Shown: positions 2,960 through 33,589 of the stretch, one piece after another
How positions within the stretch are numbered: the stretch's first letter is position 1
How the letters are laid out: each line of letters begins with the position of its first letter
IMG/VR virus record: IMGVR_UViG_3300042922_000500
Span: 1 to 39,483 of that record
Source: a virus
Direction: 5' to 3' (one strand)
DNA: 39,483 bases
The notes under the pieces: model-generated
Told to the model about the DNA's origin: nothing
Database searches by the model: none
What the model saw: only the letters and a program-made list of their open reading frames with translations
Program-made: the position numbers and the translations under genes

Positions 2960-3940
2960 TTAAGATGCTTTCTTATTATTATTGACTTGTTCTAATTCTG
3001 ATACTATTTCATCAATTGATTTTGTAATCACTTTACCATCTTCAACTAGTTTTTTTATTATGTATTTTACACCATTCGCTCTAATCATTGTTTTATAATC
3101 AATTCTATGTGTATATTTATTCTCTATTGGTAAAACTTTAAAGTAATCTATATATCTTTGATATGGTTGATTATTACTCATTAAAATCTCTTTATATCTC
3201 ATCCATGAGAATAAATTATTTCTTCCCAAATTTTTTACTTTAATTATTTTTGAAAATGTACCAATGTCAAAGTAGCCCTTATTATCAGTAAATACCTTAG
3301 CAACATCTAAATCACTTTTAAGTTTTTTAATAATTTCTTCTTCCTTCATAGATTTCTCTATTTCAGTCATTCTTTTATTTAATTTTTCATTTTCATTAAA
3401 TAATTCCATCTTTTTAGTACTATCCGATTCCATAAACATTTTACCTAATGCATTGGCTCTTAATTCTTTAAGATATTCCAATTCTTCTTCTAAAGTTTTC
3501 TTCATTACAATATTCTCAGCTTTAGTTTTAAAATAATCTTCAAGGAAATCATTATAAATACTCCATGATTCTTTTGAGGTAGCAATTTTAACAAGTTTCA
3601 TCATACCAGAATAACTAAAAATCAACCATTGTTTCGTAGCATTTAATTTATTTTGTGAATAACCAACATCCTTTAGAAACCTAGTAATATCAACGATTTT
3701 TTCGCTATCGTTTTTATCGAGAGCGGATTTTAAATCCTTAAAATCAATTCCATTTTCAAAATTATTAATATTATTATCATAATTTTCTTTGATTGCCTTT
3801 GTACTTAATCCCAATAGTTCTCCAGATTGCCAAATAGTAAACATTGGTTTGCTATCACCAAATCCTCCTAATAATCTTGTAAATTTTCGTTCATCTTTTG
3901 TTGTTATTGTTTCTCCTTTTGTTAATTCATTTTCTTTCAT
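2960..3940 (-). CDS. Phage antirepressor with KilAC (ANT) C-terminal domain
   Basis: The 326-residue product has the composition of phage antirepressors: an N-terminal DNA- or target-binding region, a helical coiled-coil middle (about 150-210, EEELEYLKELRANALGKM), and a C-terminal KilAC-type domain (GYFDIGTFSKIIKVKNLG, then NNLFSWMRYKEILMSNNQPY). Antirepressors of this class bind or titrate lysogeny repressors on induction. The N-terminal residues 35-130 resemble ORF6N/Rha-like domains only loosely. The start follows AGGAGG. It lies upstream of the XRE regulator, in the same direction but separated by a terminator, which fits a regulator/antiregulator pair. Confidence 0.75.
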   Translation of the reverse strand: MKENELTKGETITTKDERKFTRLLGGFGDSKPMFTIWQSGELLGLSTKAIKENYDNNINNFENGIDFKDLKSALDKNDSEKIVDITRFLKDVGYSQNKLNATKQWLIFSYSGMMKLVKIATSKESWSIYNDFLEDYFKTKAENIVMKKTLEEELEYLKELRANALGKMFMESDSTKKMELFNENEKLNKRMTEIEKSMKEEEIIKKLKSDLDVAKVFTDNKGYFDIGTFSKIIKVKNLGRNNLFSWMRYKEILMSNNQPYQRYIDYFKVLPIENKYTHRIDYKTMIRANGVKYIIKKLVEDGKVITKSIDEIVSELEQVNNNKKAS

Positions 3941-6656: not shown

Positions 6657-6851
6657 TTATTTATTTTTTAATGGACATTGTAAGCTACTGTATAACATTT
6701 TATATCTTTCTTCAGTTCTACAATATCTACAATGTCCACATGGATATATTTGTTTCTCTAATGTACATAAAAATGCTCTTGTCATTCCATTCTGATATAA
6801 CTTACCATATGGACACATTTCTTTATCATTAAAAGTTTGATTTTCACTCAT
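6657..6851 (-). CDS. Small Cys-rich protein, probable zinc binder
   Basis: The 64 residues contain CPYG, C at LCTLE, CGHCRYC and CPL, seven cysteines and a His well placed for one or two zinc sites. The ATG overlaps the TGA of the glycosyltransferase gene (ATGA), so it is translationally coupled to it. Function is unknown; coupling suggests it is made with, and may assist, the glycosyltransferase. Confidence 0.6.
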   Translation of the reverse strand: MSENQTFNDKEMCPYGKLYQNGMTRAFLCTLEKQIYPCGHCRYCRTEERYKMLYSSLQCPLKNK

Positions 6852-7789
6852 TTAAAATCATCTTCTTTATTAATATTATAATTTAATTTATCATTTATAT
6901 TTTTTATTGCTTCTACGTATTTATAACTACATTTATTTTTATTAATAAACGACAAATCATCATCAAAAGGATTTTTATCCACATATTTTCCTTTAAAGAA
7001 CAAATCTCCTTTATCATCTACAACTCCTGCATTATGATAAATTTTTGTTTCATCCCATCTATGAATATCATCAGTAGCCCAAGAAAAATCTAATTCATGT
7101 GAAATAGTAACATCTTTATTGAAATATAATATATTCCATAAATCAGCCCACATTTGACTTGTCCATTTTTGAATTGGAACATAATCTTTATTATTTTTAT
7201 CTATATATTCTTTTTCAACTGATCCAAAAAAAGTATATAACTTATTACAATCCTTATATGCTTTTTCCCAATAATCAATTGTAGGTTTAGTTATAATCCA
7301 TTGTGCACCAGCAGATCTACCATCTAATTTAGCTACTTTATCATAATCAACTCCAATAATATCAGCCATTCTTTTAAGTAAATCTTCACCTTTAGAATTA
7401 ATATATTTTGGTGATAAATAAGAATCGGTATCGCTACCGACCCATAGATTTTCATTATATTTAATTTTGCTAAAATCTGGTATTTCTCTAAATATTACAT
7501 CTGAATCCATATAAAAATATGTTTCATTTTGCATATTAGGATTTTCTTTTAAAAATTGCCACCATAAATACGGTTTTATGCTTGGAATATAACTTTTGTC
7601 ATCACGATTATCAGAATACACATAACACTCTATATTATATTTTTTAGATAATCTTTTAGGAATTTCATCATCATATTGTGAAAAAAGCAAAATAATATTT
7701 TTAACTCCTAATGATTTTAAATTTGTTAAACAAACTTCTAATTCCCATTCAAATCTTTTAATTGCTGGCTGAGCCATTATATAAATCAT
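6848..7789 (-). CDS. GT-A-fold glycosyltransferase-like protein
   Basis: The 313-residue product has the plan of a nucleotide-sugar-dependent glycosyltransferase: a Rossmann-like start (LKSLGVKNIILLFSQY), a metal-binding DxD in YFYMDSDVIFRE (Asp95 and Asp97), then LWVGSDTDSYLS and an acceptor-side SAGAQWIITKPT segment. Trp and Tyr are frequent, as in sugar-binding proteins. It lies directly after the gene for a protein with a 34-Thr tail and is coupled to a small Cys-rich protein. Modification of virion proteins, perhaps that tail, is my inference; action on host wall polymers is the alternative. Start after GGGTG; no membrane span. Confidence 0.75.
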   Translation of the reverse strand: MIYIMAQPAIKRFEWELEVCLTNLKSLGVKNIILLFSQYDDEIPKRLSKKYNIECYVYSDNRDDKSYIPSIKPYLWWQFLKENPNMQNETYFYMDSDVIFREIPDFSKIKYNENLWVGSDTDSYLSPKYINSKGEDLLKRMADIIGVDYDKVAKLDGRSAGAQWIITKPTIDYWEKAYKDCNKLYTFFGSVEKEYIDKNNKDYVPIQKWTSQMWADLWNILYFNKDVTISHELDFSWATDDIHRWDETKIYHNAGVVDDKGDLFFKGKYVDKNPFDDDLSFINKNKCSYKYVEAIKNINDKLNYNINKEDDFK

Positions 7790-7805: not shown

Positions 7806-8393
7806 TTAACCTACTGTAGTTGTAGTAGTAGTTGCTACAGTTGTAGTGGTTGTAGTTGTAGGTGCAACTGTGGTTGTAGTAGTTGTTGTAGGAGCTACAG
7901 TTGTAGTAGTAGTCGTAGTCGGAGTAGCTGTTGTAGTGGTTGTTGTTGGTGCTGTAACTGTTACAGAGCAAGTAGCTTTCTTACTAGAATCAGCTTGTGA
8001 TGTAAATGTTACAGTTGCACTACCAGCAGATATAAAGTTTATCCTCCATGCACTTGCTTCGTTATCCCATGCTACAGTAGCTATACCTGTACTACTTGAA
8101 GAAGCAGTTACTCCAGGTTGTGCTGTAGATGGCTGAATAACAGCAATTACTGTATCAGAACTTCCTACAAGACCACTAGTTGATGTTTTACTTAATTGTA
8201 CACTTGATACGGGACTATATGAAGTAGTTACATTTATAGAATCACTTAAAGTACTTTCTCCCATTTCATTTTCAGCACTTACTTGATATGTATATTGTGT
8301 ATGAGGTGTAAGTCCTGTATCTGTATATGTTGTATCTATTAATCCACTTTGTATTTTTGTTCCATTTTTATATACATTATATGTTGTAGCCAT
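7806..8393 (-). CDS. Virion-type protein: N-truncated FN3 domain, BIG2 domain and poly-Thr tail
   Basis: Residues 1-57 (TTYNVYKNGTKI, then DTGLTPHTQYTYQVSAENE) match a fibronectin type III domain from strand C onward; strands A and B are absent. Residues 58-148 look like a bacterial Ig-like BIG2 domain (ATVAWDNEASAWRI, then SAGSATVTFTSQAD). The last 46 residues hold 34 Thr with Val-Ala-Pro spacers, a mucin-like tail. ATG follows GGGAG. Peptides resembling the missing strands A-B are encoded in the +1 frame at the ends of the two preceding genes. Probably a tail or head surface adhesin; the tail may be O-glycosylated by the neighbouring enzyme. Confidence 0.75.
   Translation of the reverse strand: MATTYNVYKNGTKIQSGLIDTTYTDTGLTPHTQYTYQVSAENEMGESTLSDSINVTTSYSPVSSVQLSKTSTSGLVGSSDTVIAVIQPSTAQPGVTASSSSTGIATVAWDNEASAWRINFISAGSATVTFTSQADSSKKATCSVTVTAPTTTTTTATPTTTTTTTVAPTTTTTTTVAPTTTTTTTVATTTTTTVG
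7809..7950 (-). repeat. Imperfect 30-bp tandem repeats encoding the Thr-rich tail
   Basis: Three to four units encode seven Thr plus Val-Ala-Pro, with silent variation between ACA, ACT and occasional ACC or ACG codons. They belong to the gene above and are not a CRISPR array. Confidence 0.85.
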
Positions 8394-8444
8394 ATTTTAT
8401 TTTATCTCCCTTCTATAAAATATAATTATTAATACTTTATTAAG

Positions 8445-8516
8445 CCCCTGTAGAGACTAATTCCATGACAATACTATACTTGTATCTGTTGTAGAATTAG
8501 TCTCTAGTCCTTGGGG
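8445..8516 (-). promoter_or_regulatory. Conserved hairpin B, overlapping the +1 extension of the 57-codon gene
   Basis: On the minus strand CCCC/GGGG (8513-8516 with 8445-8448) encloses a perfect 12-bp stem (8494-8505 with 8452-8463). The structure starts about 4 nt after the CCC-TAG. The same fold recurs at 8741-8812 with compensating base changes. Confidence 0.75.
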
Positions 8517-8523
8517 AATACTA
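8457..8523 (-). other. +1 frameshift extension of the 57-codon gene (FN3 strands A-B)
   Basis: At CCC-TAG a one-base forward slip onto CCU continues as SIPQGLETNS followed by TTDTSIVLSWN and a TAG. This reads like the first two strands of an FN3 domain. CCC-stop is the known +1 slip site of SPP1 and Listeria phage PSA structural genes. Not proven to be used here. Confidence 0.6.
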
Positions 8524-8694
8524 GGGAGTAGTTAAAAATGGTATTTTCTTTACAGCTCCATTTACTGCAAAATAAATATTATTTTCATCATATCCTAGAA
8601 ATCCATCTTTTTCTGCATTTGTTGGTTCTTCTGATAATTGTTTTAATTGTAATAAATTTACGAATAATTCTGGTATTTGATTATATGATTCCAT
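8521..8694 (-). CDS. Small virion-type protein, 57 aa, ending at a CCC-TAG slip site
   Basis: ATG at 8694 is 10 nt after AGGAGG. The product runs MESYNQIPELFVNLLQLKQL, then GFLGYDENNIYFAVNGAVKK, and ends FLTTP. It has no recognised family, but the beta-rich end resembles short phage decoration or tail-associated proteins. It lies between the tail tube gene and the FN3/BIG2/poly-Thr gene. Like the tail tube it ends with Pro-stop at CCC-TAG, and the +1 frame adds 22 FN3-like residues, giving a 79-residue minor form. Confidence 0.7.
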   Translation of the reverse strand: MESYNQIPELFVNLLQLKQLSEEPTNAEKDGFLGYDENNIYFAVNGAVKKIPFLTTP

Positions 8695-8716
8695 TATTTA
8701 AATTCCTCCTAAATAT

Positions 8717-8728
8717 ATTTAATTTATT
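8717..8728 (-). promoter_or_regulatory. Phage motif copy 7, heading the 57-codon gene
   Basis: Ends 23 nt before ATG 8694, with AGGAGG 6 nt downstream of the motif. Confidence 0.55.
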
Positions 8729-8740
8729 TTATTGTAGAAT

Positions 8741-8812
8741 CCCCTGTAACGTTTAATTCCAAGCTAGATTTACACTAGTATCGGTTATAGAACTAGACAT
8801 CAGTCCTTGGGG
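8741..8812 (-). promoter_or_regulatory. Conserved hairpin A, overlapping the +1 extension of the tail tube gene
   Basis: CCCC/GGGG (8809-8812 with 8741-8744) and a 12-bp stem (8790-8801 with 8748-8759) with one mismatch and three G-U pairs. Compared with hairpin B, three stem positions show changes on both sides that keep pairing. Confidence 0.75.
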
Positions 8813-8819
8813 TGTATTA
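8753..8819 (-). other. +1 frameshift extension of the tail tube gene (FN3 strands A-B)
   Basis: At CCC-TAA a +1 slip continues as NTPQGLMSSS followed by ITDTSVNLAWN and TAA. It shares PQGL, TDTS and L-x-W-N with the extension at 8457-8523, showing that the +1 frame has been kept as protein. Confidence 0.65.
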
Positions 8820-9869
8820 GGGAGCTACTATAGTTACTTCAGCTGTTGCTGTTATACTTGGTTTATCAGTAATAGATACTGTTATTGTTGATTTATCACC
8901 ATTAGTCGAAGAAACCTTTGTGATTGTTCCATCTGCTGAAACTGTACAGGTTGCAGGAGTATCAGATACAAAGGTTAAATCTTCATATGGTGGCTTAAAC
9001 GCATTTCCTGCTGTTGGTACAGCAATAACATCTAATACTTCTGTTGTATCACTGGCACTTAGAGTAATTGTATCATCCACAATTCCTAAAACATATACTG
9101 AGTCGTACCAATTAGAATTATTCATTATTTCAGTTATTATTGCATAAACACCATCTCCATCACATGATGCTGATTGTGTAGCTAATGCACTCCCGTTAAA
9201 TGGAGTTTTGCTCACACCTGTAGATGTCATCGCTATATCAACTCCACCGTCAAGTAAAAATCTAGGTACTTCAATTTGACAAATTCCGACTTTTGTTGCA
9301 CTGTTTAAATCGTCAGAACTACCAGCAAATAATTGTGCTTCCATCACTAATCTAATAGTTGAAGGAACGATATTAGAACTTACTGTTAATTGTCTAGCTC
9401 CTGTATTATTATTTCTATACATAATACATACTGAATCACCAACAGTACCTACTGGAGAAGTAAATGTACTACCAGTAAAAGTTACCTTTTGCCATTCATT
9501 CTTTCCAGGTAATGACACCCATCCTATTTTACCATATGTAGCAAAATCAGCAGGAGCACTTGCAACTGTACCTACATTACTAGTTGCCAAAGTAACAGTT
9601 TCAGAAGCAAGAACATCTCCTCCTATATTAATATTTGCACCTATATTAGCTGCTATATACTCTAATCTGAACATAGCATCTTCAATTTTTAAGTCAAATT
9701 TTGATGTATGGAAGAATTTTCCAAATAAAACATCTCCTTGACCACCCCTGACATCTGTTCCTGTAACACTTACTGTAATTGATGATGTTAAAAGTGTTCT
9801 AGCTGTAGCAAAAACTTGGTCTCCCGCAAACATTTTTACTCTAGCTACGCCACCTATAAAATAATCCAT
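8817..9869 (-). CDS. Major tail tube protein with C-terminal BIG2 domain and +1 frameshift site
   Basis: The 350-residue protein starts MDYFIGGVARVKMFAGDQVF and has the all-beta composition of a tail tube subunit (GQGDVLFGKFFHTSKFDLKI, then DAMFRLEYIAANIG). Residues ~285-350 form a BIG2-type Ig-like domain (FVSDTPATCTVSADGTI) ending VAP. The stop context CCC-TAA and the FN3-like +1 extension parallel SPP1 gp17.1, whose tube protein also gains an FN3 domain by +1 frameshifting. The strong AAGGAGG start, an upstream terminator and its own motif copy suggest independent, high expression. A head decoration role is less likely. No tape measure gene is seen in the window. Confidence 0.75.
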   Translation of the reverse strand: MDYFIGGVARVKMFAGDQVFATARTLLTSSITVSVTGTDVRGGQGDVLFGKFFHTSKFDLKIEDAMFRLEYIAANIGANINIGGDVLASETVTLATSNVGTVASAPADFATYGKIGWVSLPGKNEWQKVTFTGSTFTSPVGTVGDSVCIMYRNNNTGARQLTVSSNIVPSTIRLVMEAQLFAGSSDDLNSATKVGICQIEVPRFLLDGGVDIAMTSTGVSKTPFNGSALATQSASCDGDGVYAIITEIMNNSNWYDSVYVLGIVDDTITLSASDTTEVLDVIAVPTAGNAFKPPYEDLTFVSDTPATCTVSADGTITKVSSTNGDKSTITVSITDKPSITATAEVTIVAP

Positions 9870-31778: not shown

Positions 31779-33233
31779 TTATAAAATTATTTCCATATTT
31801 TTTGTACTACCAATTATTTTCGTTGATTTACCTATTTTATTTAATTCTTCTCTTGCATCCTCAATTAATTCTTTTTTCGCTTCTTTTGAAGAATGGTGAA
31901 TTATTATCTTATCCGTATTTACCATCTTAATATAATTAATTAATTCAGAATGTTGTGCATGACTACTATAAGTTTTATAGGACTTTCTTAAACAAGATTT
32001 ATTATATGTACTTATTCCTATTTTTACCGTTTTAGTTAATGGATTAAGAATACGTCCACCAACACTAGAATCTGGACAATACCCTACGAATAGGATTGCG
32101 TCTTTATTATTAGGTAAAAATGATTTTGCATATAACTGGCTTCTTCCTGCATCTAAGAATCCTTGACTACTTAAAATTACGCAAGGTTCATCTTTAGCAA
32201 GAATTAATTTTGTACCTTTAATATCTTTATTCATTTTAACATTACTCCAAGAAGTAGCGTTCTTTAATAATTCTTTATCTTCCCCTTTAAGAATCTTATG
32301 ATAGCAAGATGTTATATCTACACTTAATTTTGAATCAATAATTACTGGAGTATATCCGAATTCTTTATCATCTTTAAACATATTATATAAATCAACTAAT
32401 ACCTCTTGTGTTCTTGAAAATGAAAACGTTGGTAATAATACTTTACCGCCATTCATAATTACTTCTTTTATAGTTTTTTTTATATCATATCTTTCTTCTT
32501 TTACATCTTTTGTAGTATAACTACGACTGTTTAATCCATAAGTCCCCTCCTGAATGTGCAGGTTACTTTTAGTTGCATATTCCATTTCTGTTACAAAAGG
32601 TTTATCTTTTCTGATATTACTTCCAATATCAGATGTATATACTATTTTCACTACTTTATTACTTGGTTTTCTTATAAATAATTCTAATTGTGATGCTCCC
32701 AAACAATGTGAATTTTTAATAAGCCTAAAAGATATGTTTTCATTAATCTCATAAGTTTCATCTAAATCACATGCTTCCATATATTCATATGTTTTATAGA
32801 CATCTATATCTCTGTATAAAGGGTCTATTTTACATTTCTTTTCTTTACTTAATATTTCTGATTCTTTCAATAAGATATGTGCTGAATCTAACAACAATAA
32901 TCTTCCAATTTCTTTTGTTTCATATGTACAATATATTTTTCCATGAAAATCTTTCTTTTTTATAATCCCTGGTAAATTTGATATGTGATCACAATGTGTG
33001 TGTAATAACCATACACATTCAAGATTACTAACATTAATTTCATTTATTAATTGTGAGTTTAATGTATATGATTTATCTAATCCATAACCTTGAGCACTTC
33101 CACATTCAATCAAATATGTTTTTCCTAAAAATGTTATCCTTAAACAACTCTGAGTAACATCAACTGCTGAATTACCTAAAAATTCTACTTTTACATCTTC
33201 ATTGTTTTTCTTCTTACTTCCCACATATACCAT
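31779..33233 (-). CDS. Beta-CASP metallo-beta-lactamase ribonuclease
   Basis: 484 residues with the metallo-beta-lactamase motifs HTHCDH (78-83), His176 in SHCLGA and Asp202 in YTSDIG, followed by beta-CASP features: Glu229 in IQEGTYG, the SSQGFLDAGRSQLYAK segment and His425 in YSSHAQHSEL, with His446/447 near the end. This is the architecture of RNA-processing nucleases of the CPSF73 / bacterial RNase type. In a phage it could mature or degrade transcripts, including those starting at the recurrent intergenic motif. The annotated ATG lies very close to its AAAGGA; GTG at 33224 is an alternative start. Confidence 0.85.
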   Translation of the reverse strand: MVYVGSKKKNNEDVKVEFLGNSAVDVTQSCLRITFLGKTYLIECGSAQGYGLDKSYTLNSQLINEINVSNLECVWLLHTHCDHISNLPGIIKKKDFHGKIYCTYETKEIGRLLLLDSAHILLKESEILSKEKKCKIDPLYRDIDVYKTYEYMEACDLDETYEINENISFRLIKNSHCLGASQLELFIRKPSNKVVKIVYTSDIGSNIRKDKPFVTEMEYATKSNLHIQEGTYGLNSRSYTTKDVKEERYDIKKTIKEVIMNGGKVLLPTFSFSRTQEVLVDLYNMFKDDKEFGYTPVIIDSKLSVDITSCYHKILKGEDKELLKNATSWSNVKMNKDIKGTKLILAKDEPCVILSSQGFLDAGRSQLYAKSFLPNNKDAILFVGYCPDSSVGGRILNPLTKTVKIGISTYNKSCLRKSYKTYSSHAQHSELINYIKMVNTDKIIIHHSSKEAKKELIEDAREELNKIGKSTKIIGSTKNMEIIL

Positions 33234-33306: not shown

Positions 33307-33318
33307 TTTTAATTTATT
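33307..33318 (-). promoter_or_regulatory. Phage motif copy 22
   Basis: After the HU stop, 74 nt before the ribonuclease start. The interval contains a short run TGGGAGTTATAATATAAATC and CTCCCACC complement around 33250-33300 that could form a leader stem. Confidence 0.5.
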
Positions 33319-33589
33319 ACTTTATTGCTTCTTTTAATGCTGTAGTTGCTTTTACAACTGGAACTGTCTTTTCTTCTACTTCAACAGCCTCACCTGTCCT
33401 AGGGTTTCTAGCTTGATGTGCTTCCTTAACTTTACTATCAATAGTAACTACGTCCTTAATTATCACTTTTTCTCCTGCACTTACCTTTTCATGTACTTTC
33501 TTTGCTAAAGCTTTTATAAATTCATCTACTTCCTTCTTTGTTTTACCTAATTCCTCTGAAATTTCTTTTACTAAATCTGCATGTGTCAT
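33317..33589 (-). CDS. HU-family DNA-binding protein
   Basis: A 90-residue HU protein: MTHADLVKEISEELGKTKKE forms the helical base, VIIKDVVTIDSKVKEAHQAR the beta arms, and RNPRTGEAVEVEEKT the minor-groove-binding tip with the conserved Asn-Pro. HU bends and compacts DNA in the cytoplasm. A phage HU next to its own RNA polymerase recalls YonN/YonO of SPbeta. Start after AGGGGGAA. Confidence 0.9.
   Translation of the reverse strand: MTHADLVKEISEELGKTKKEVDEFIKALAKKVHEKVSAGEKVIIKDVVTIDSKVKEAHQARNPRTGEAVEVEEKTVPVVKATTALKEAIK

Follow-up and report, generated by a model that had tools for sequence, protein, structure and literature searches.

Strands A-B and C-G of an FN3 domain are encoded apart in phages of Gram-positive bacteria and may form a two-piece dock

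The stretch of DNA analyzed in this study, referred to as the window, is the IMG/VR virus record IMGVR_UViG_3300042922_000500, which comprises 39,483 bases. All genes of relevance are encoded on its minus strand, and their features are compiled in Table 1. The tail tube protein, which shares 39-41% identity with the "major tail protein" of the PMBT24 type, is followed by a 57-aa protein and by a 195-aa protein, termed here the catcher, that consists of FN3 strands C-G, a Big2 domain, and a Thr-rich stalk. According to the earlier note on this DNA, the tail tube gene ends in CCC-TAA and the 57-codon gene in CCC-TAG, and the sequence agrees, since the 3' ends are GCT CCC TAA and ACT CCC TAG, respectively. 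A search for relatives of the 57-aa protein detected none, and proof that it is a virion or structural protein is lacking. The gene that follows the catcher (positions 6848 to 7789, minus strand) codes for a 313-aa protein of phrog_4417, a group of unknown function. It had no matches in Pfam or PDB but has, by eye (..YFYMDSDVIF..), the look of a GT-A type glycosyltransferase, and it might glycosylate the Thr-rich stalk. Other genes noticed by eye in the window encode an HU-like DNA-binding protein (33317 to 33589, minus strand) and a protein with metallo-beta-lactamase fold (31779 to 33233, minus strand).

Table 1. Features of the split FN3 locus in the window
Feature	Position	Strand	Basis or remark
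Tail tube/major tail protein gene	8817..9869	(-)	350 aa; 0 frame end ..IVAP-stop (CCC TAA)
Putative shift site 1, CCC TAA	8817..8822	(-)	sequence
Tag 1, FN3 strands A-B, +1 frame NTPQGLMSSSITDTSVNLAWN-stop	8753..8818	(-)	profile and sequence; read from 8818, closes with TAA
RNA hairpin 1 (CCCC...GGGG, 18 pairs, many G-U), around tag 1	8741..8812	(-)	pairing
Ribosome-binding site AGGAGGA, for 57-aa gene	8704..8710	(-)	sequence
57-aa gene, function unknown	8521..8694	(-)	end ..PFLTTP-stop (CCC TAG)
Putative shift site 2, CCC TAG	8521..8526	(-)	sequence
Tag 2, FN3 strands A-B, +1 frame SIPQGLETNSTTDTSIVLSWN-stop	8457..8522	(-)	profile and sequence; read from 8522, closes with TAG
RNA hairpin 2 (CCCC...GGGG, 18 pairs), around tag 2	8445..8516	(-)	z -4.2 to -5.5
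Ribosome-binding site AGAAGGGAG, for catcher gene	8406..8414	(-)	sequence
Catcher gene, 195 aa	7806..8393	(-)	Pfam fn3, PHROG match
Catcher FN3 strands C-G	about 8223-8393	(-)	
Catcher Big2	about 7968-8210	(-)	
Catcher Thr-rich stalk	about 7809-7949	(-)	

A CCC codon immediately 5' of the stop, as present in both upstream genes, is the shift type of tsh in the Listeria phages PSA, A118, and A500 (PMC5009743), and a further mark of PSA-type +1 shifting, an open reading frame past the slip site, is conserved across the related loci. Both +1 frames of the window comprise 21 codons, stop immediately after Trp-Asn, and lie within a direct DNA repeat of ~85 nt. That they encode related FN3 A-B peptides, as proposed previously, is upheld by translation, by the repeat, and by a tag profile whose training set excluded the window and for which the two tags were the only good matches (E values of 6e-9 and 7e-4) among 1782 six-frame segments, the next-best match having an E value of 1.8. 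When the profile was built leaving out one phage at a time, the held-out tags were the top six-frame hits in six of seven loci with E values of 7e-4 or better, and only the Latilactobacillus tag was missed. Tags within one phage resembled each other more than tags from different phages (mean score of 65 versus 26; permutation P of about 3e-5), a likeness driven by differences between the major types (within the W type, only 7/120). The changes between tags 1 and 2 of the window are spread over the codon positions (6, 6, and 7) without an excess at the third, and those between the two tags of locus L012 (3, 3, and 11) fall mainly on the third. The direct repeat, the held-out profile, and the recurrence in unrelated phages described below confirm that the split arrangement in the window is beyond chance. 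The tail tube relatives found in Enterocloster phages do without the tag, so this lineage can dispense with it, and a six-frame scan of the IMG/VR relatives of the window tail tube gave no tag matches.

Each tag is surrounded by an RNA hairpin that had not been mentioned in the earlier note and whose 3' arm, GGGG, is located past the tag stop codon. Hairpin 2 greatly exceeds shuffled sequence in stability; hairpin 1, which is rich in G-U pairs, taken alone is no more stable than shuffled sequence. Alignment A3 comprises six copies of the element, drawn from four records, and each copy kept all 18 pairs. Changes on both sides were observed for 6 pairs, amounting to 12 cells versus 4.1 in shuffles; none of 500 shuffles gave an equally high value, and every slid register was much worse. 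There is thus a covarying RNA structure downstream of CCC-stop, as in PSA-type shifting, and since it begins ~8-9 nt downstream of CCC we read it as a stimulator of the shift, a role that is inferred.

The N terminus of the catcher is MATTYNVYKNGTKI, and an in-frame stop is found two codons upstream, with a single residue in between. Pfam fn3 (PF00041) matched the window catcher alone with 25.9 bits over profile positions 40-83 of 84, and placing tag 2 before the catcher raised this value to 36.8 bits over positions 2-83. A whole-domain match above the curated cut-off was obtained only when tag and catcher were joined. The start of the match at position 40 and the upstream stop bear out the previous claim that the third gene begins at strand C without A-B strands of its own; sequence and prediction indicate an acceptor fold lacking strands that another polypeptide carries. 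Residues 1-149 of the window catcher correspond to positions 1-150 of 154 of the phrog_341 profile (E value of 2e-19), and all catchers tested, i.e., this one and ten others, match PHROG 341 from profile position 1 or 2. The name of this family, "major tail protein," does not fit the catchers, which are not tail tube proteins, and no mention of a missing half-domain in PHROG 341 was found in the sources searched. The catcher genes are annotated inconsistently, namely, as major tail protein, chitinase, kappa-carrageenase precursor, adhesin, or hypothetical protein.

For structure prediction, tag 2 and the catcher were linked into one chain by reading the two stops between them as Gln (table 6), which makes the linker artificial, and a nine-row alignment served as input for AlphaFold2. 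The linked chain was predicted to pack into one FN3-like fold with a pLDDT of 87 and a pTM of 0.73; the tag strands reached 90-95, and most of the linker was below 50. This outcome agrees with the split domain suggested earlier. For the catcher without the tag, the corresponding values were 81 and 0.54, and the five models differed more. A fold search retrieved FN3 neighbors and added little to the prediction. Tag and catcher are thus compatible, as predicted, with a single FN3-like domain, which is not proof of binding; a caveat on the linked-chain result is that AlphaFold2 may complete FN3 folds readily.

A tag together with an FN3 gene that starts at strand C was identified in 17 further loci, one of which (L059) is incomplete. 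They come from uncultured phages and from phages of Enterococcus, Carnobacterium, Brochothrix, Latilactobacillus, and Staphylococcus. Scanning IMG/VR with a DNA pattern provided loci L012, L014, and L026, in which the tagged gene is the major capsid gene and is directly followed by the gene for the C-start FN3 protein; in L012, the tail tube gene is tagged as well. Matches to PHROG 341 led to isolated phages, namely, TV16, EC99P1, TwoStep, and AUEF3 of Enterococcus; phi12, 3A, SN8, SA3, K, and JDF86 of Staphylococcus; Carnobacterium cd4; Brochothrix BtpYZU02; Latilactobacillus TMW 1.1381 P1; and SP-QS1 (Streptococcus by record). A scan of the genome collection with the element pattern returned chance matches only, as judged by the translations.

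Several features emerge from the comparison of these loci. (i) Tags are carried by the capsid protein, the tail tube protein, a baseplate protein, or an Ig-like structural protein, and in L012, TV16, EC99P1, cd4, BtpYZU02, phi12, 3A, SN8, and TwoStep both the capsid and the nonhomologous tail tube protein are tagged. (ii) The earlier note had made conservation of the +1 frames in related phages a condition for its proposal, and the out-of-frame A-B peptides are indeed kept, in some phages in frame. The +1 shift as the route to the tag holds for many loci (CCC-stop, or CCC-AGC-stop in phi12) but not for all, since a -1 shift is used in others (e.g., at GGGAAAG in BtpYZU02 and TV16) and no shift is needed for the in-frame tags of the SN8 tail tube and the K-like phages. 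(iii) All complete tags stop where strand B does or within a few residues of that point, and all catchers start just before strand C. The in-frame residues upstream of the catcher start number between 0 and 17 (17 starts), and no catcher gene has space for A-B strands of its own. (iv) The catcher of TwoStep is the C-G half alone (66 aa), and 282 phage records match this half.

Some loci show additional peculiarities. In the AUEF3 record (L059, positions 3778 to 3877 and 3' end), an assembly gap and the contig end fall within the two tag repeats, which are nearly identical and apparently disrupted the assembly; the tags are incomplete, the record ending within the repeated tag. The catcher of Latilactobacillus phage TMW 1.1381 P1 (L052, 2495 to 2983) starts at strand C and ends with A-B strands of its own (..VTSLATSNVTSSAVTLTWV-stop), and it could polymerize head to tail. 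K-like Staphylococcus phages (L057, 4338 to 5746; L054, 1832 to 3260; L066, 2346 to 3755) possess three consecutive genes with in-frame split FN3 halves, in the order tagged protein, catcher with Big2 and its own tag, and catcher only, which would form a noncovalent chain. Chains of catchers are possible in these phages because the catcher itself ends in a tag. An attempt to connect the K-type tagged protein with gp164, the neck decoration protein of phage 812, did not establish a link.

Information on virions was available from a survey of intact phages by MALDI, which reported an "Ig-like domain" protein of 15,857 and an unshifted tail protein of 23,336 for phage 3A, as well as masses of 23,070, 17,718, and 7,819 for K1/420 (PMC5923470). 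When Met was left out of the calculation, the sequences of the 3A catcher and the 3A tail protein gave 15,855 and 23,335, respectively, and those of phage K gave 23,068 and 17,717; a third phage K value, 7,817, includes Met. Since the published masses fit the calculated ones, both the in-frame tagged proteins and the catchers beginning at strand C occur in virions as polypeptides of their own. The tail proteins in the survey (PMC5923470) were detected in their unshifted forms only, and a minor product would escape detection. In the PDB, chain 9rox spans residues 2-175 of the K-type tagged protein but lacks the tag.

Based on these data, we propose that a minority of ribosomes, aided by the downstream hairpin, would slip +1 at CCC-stop and append 21 residues, corresponding to FN3 strands A-B, to both the tail tube protein and the 57-aa protein. 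The product of the next gene, an FN3 half C-G fused to Big2 and the Thr-rich stalk, would be completed in trans by the A-B tag, by which the FN3-Big2-Thr protein would be fixed to the particle. A single catcher could decorate several different proteins, and the frameshift rate would set the dose of docked cargo. The anatomy of the locus, its recurrence, the covariation of the hairpin, the lack of strands A-B in all catchers, and the compatibility with one fold are documented here, whereas the shifting in the window, the binding of the halves, and the docking contact are all inferred. We assign a probability of roughly 0.8 to the two-piece FN3 serving as a dock; its weak points are that there are no binding data and that no shifted peptide has been reported for such phages. 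Tail docking by strand complementation, the central proposal of the earlier note, is supported by recurrence and fold, with binding still inferred, but its restriction to the tail was too narrow because the capsid protein is tagged in most relatives.

Alternative explanations have to be considered. The tags could be relics of an ancestral shift-appended FN3-Big2 that was cut by a stop, after which the distal part acquired its own start and the extension was left without a role. An unsplit form does exist on a homologous capsid protein: the +1 frames of the capsid genes of L007 and L013, whose proteins are 47% identical to that of L012, continue for 159 further residues through the whole FN3-Big2, whereas the window frames halt right after strand B. 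In several loci, moreover, only 8-24 nt separate the tag stop from the catcher start. We nevertheless judge this origin improbable, because tags recur on several genes and occur in frame: two nonhomologous genes per genome are tagged in phages of several host genera, with shift sites and stop position conserved; tags persist remote from any catcher (tail tube genes of the window, L012, and TwoStep, and capsid gene of phi12); and the lone C-G half, although it would be an incomplete FN3 fold, is kept and present in virions. A joining in cis, in which hopping, read-through, or reinitiation leads from the tag into the catcher and yields one covalent FN3, draws on the shared frame of tag and catcher in the window (tag 2, 66 nt apart) and in EC99P1 (21 nt apart). 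Numerous tags, however, are not followed by a catcher, and because, in addition, the gaps vary between 8 and 74 nt and all three frame relations occur, we give such a joining hardly any credence; virion masses also match catchers begun at their own start codon. Ribosomal bypassing, considered because of the shared frame of tag 2 and the catcher, was rejected in view of the variable gaps and frames and the tags far from catchers.

The strong covariation of the hairpin and the likeness of its copies at the DNA level are also what one would expect of a regulatory RNA element, controlling, e.g., translation of the next gene, with the peptide as a by-product of pairing. This purely RNA-based role can be almost disregarded, because some tags show no clear hairpin (EC99P1 tail tube, TMW, BtpYZU02, SA3, and JDF86). 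Furthermore, the peptide pattern is maintained when the codons differ, when the frame differs, and when no shift is needed; the peptide also corresponds to FN3 strands A-B and fills the missing part of the Pfam profile. Finally, the FN3 likeness might not reflect a contact between tag and catcher if the tag binds another partner or the catchers pair mutually, as the catchers ending in an A-B tag (TMW 1.1381 P1 and K-like phages) might suggest. We hold this to be very improbable: at most loci the capsid and tail tube proteins are tagged and the catcher is not, and each such phage contains exactly the two complementary halves.

A number of systems are related to this arrangement. Ig-like or FN3 domains appended by a shift to phage proteins have been described for SPP1 gp17.1*, Listeria PSA/A118/A500, Lactobacillus A2, and T3 (PMC5009743, PMC8718954). 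SPP1 gp17.1* and PSA-type systems likewise slip at the 3' end of a capsid or tail gene, often at CCC-stop with an RNA structure, and, similar to tag and catcher, SPP1/A118-type products carry or help to build an Ig-like domain. The shifted frame, however, encodes a whole domain (Big2) in A118 and A500 and a short unrelated tail in PSA tsh, whereas it encodes only strands A-B in the window, where no whole domain of the SPP1 gp17.1* kind is present in the shifted frame and strands C-G are contributed by a gene of their own. PSA, A118, and A500 were also checked as hidden split cases and found not to be split. Donor-strand complementation in chaperone-usher pili involves beta-strand exchange via a single N-terminal strand, and a small peptide reassembles with a truncated Ig-like domain in SpyTag/SpyCatcher-type pairs, as it does in engineered split FN3 fragments. 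Beta-sheet complementation has also been reported between tail sheath proteins (PMC12886913). As in pili and sheaths, a strand of one protein would here complete the fold of another. In contrast to the pilus strand, the tag is a two-strand hairpin at the C terminus and involves no chaperone; it also differs from these complementation systems in that the FN3 is split at the B/C loop and the tag would be a minor frameshift product. Unlike SpyTag/SpyCatcher-type pairs, tag and catcher are natural and common to many phages, and no isopeptide bond is proposed. Nothing on phages was found in the literature on such engineered pairs, nor did our search of open-access literature, which leaves most subscription papers and preprints uncovered, turn up an earlier account of a split FN3 domain in phages.

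It appears likely that tag and catcher represent a natural modular system common to phages of Gram-positive bacteria, in which various virion proteins carry strands A-B and all serve as docking points for a single C-G half, in some phages in chains. A split dock would account for the shortness of the extensions, only about 21 residues, that shifts add where capsid and tail genes end, and it would assign a role to a large protein family that bears the wrong name. It would separate dose, set by the frameshift rate, from cargo, set by the catcher gene, so that head and tail could share one decoration protein, exchangeable as a single gene. Testable predictions would follow for the well-studied phages phi12, 3A, K, and VD13, and, if binding is tight, the 21-residue tags and the catchers of about 60 residues would be natural parts for cargo display on phages.
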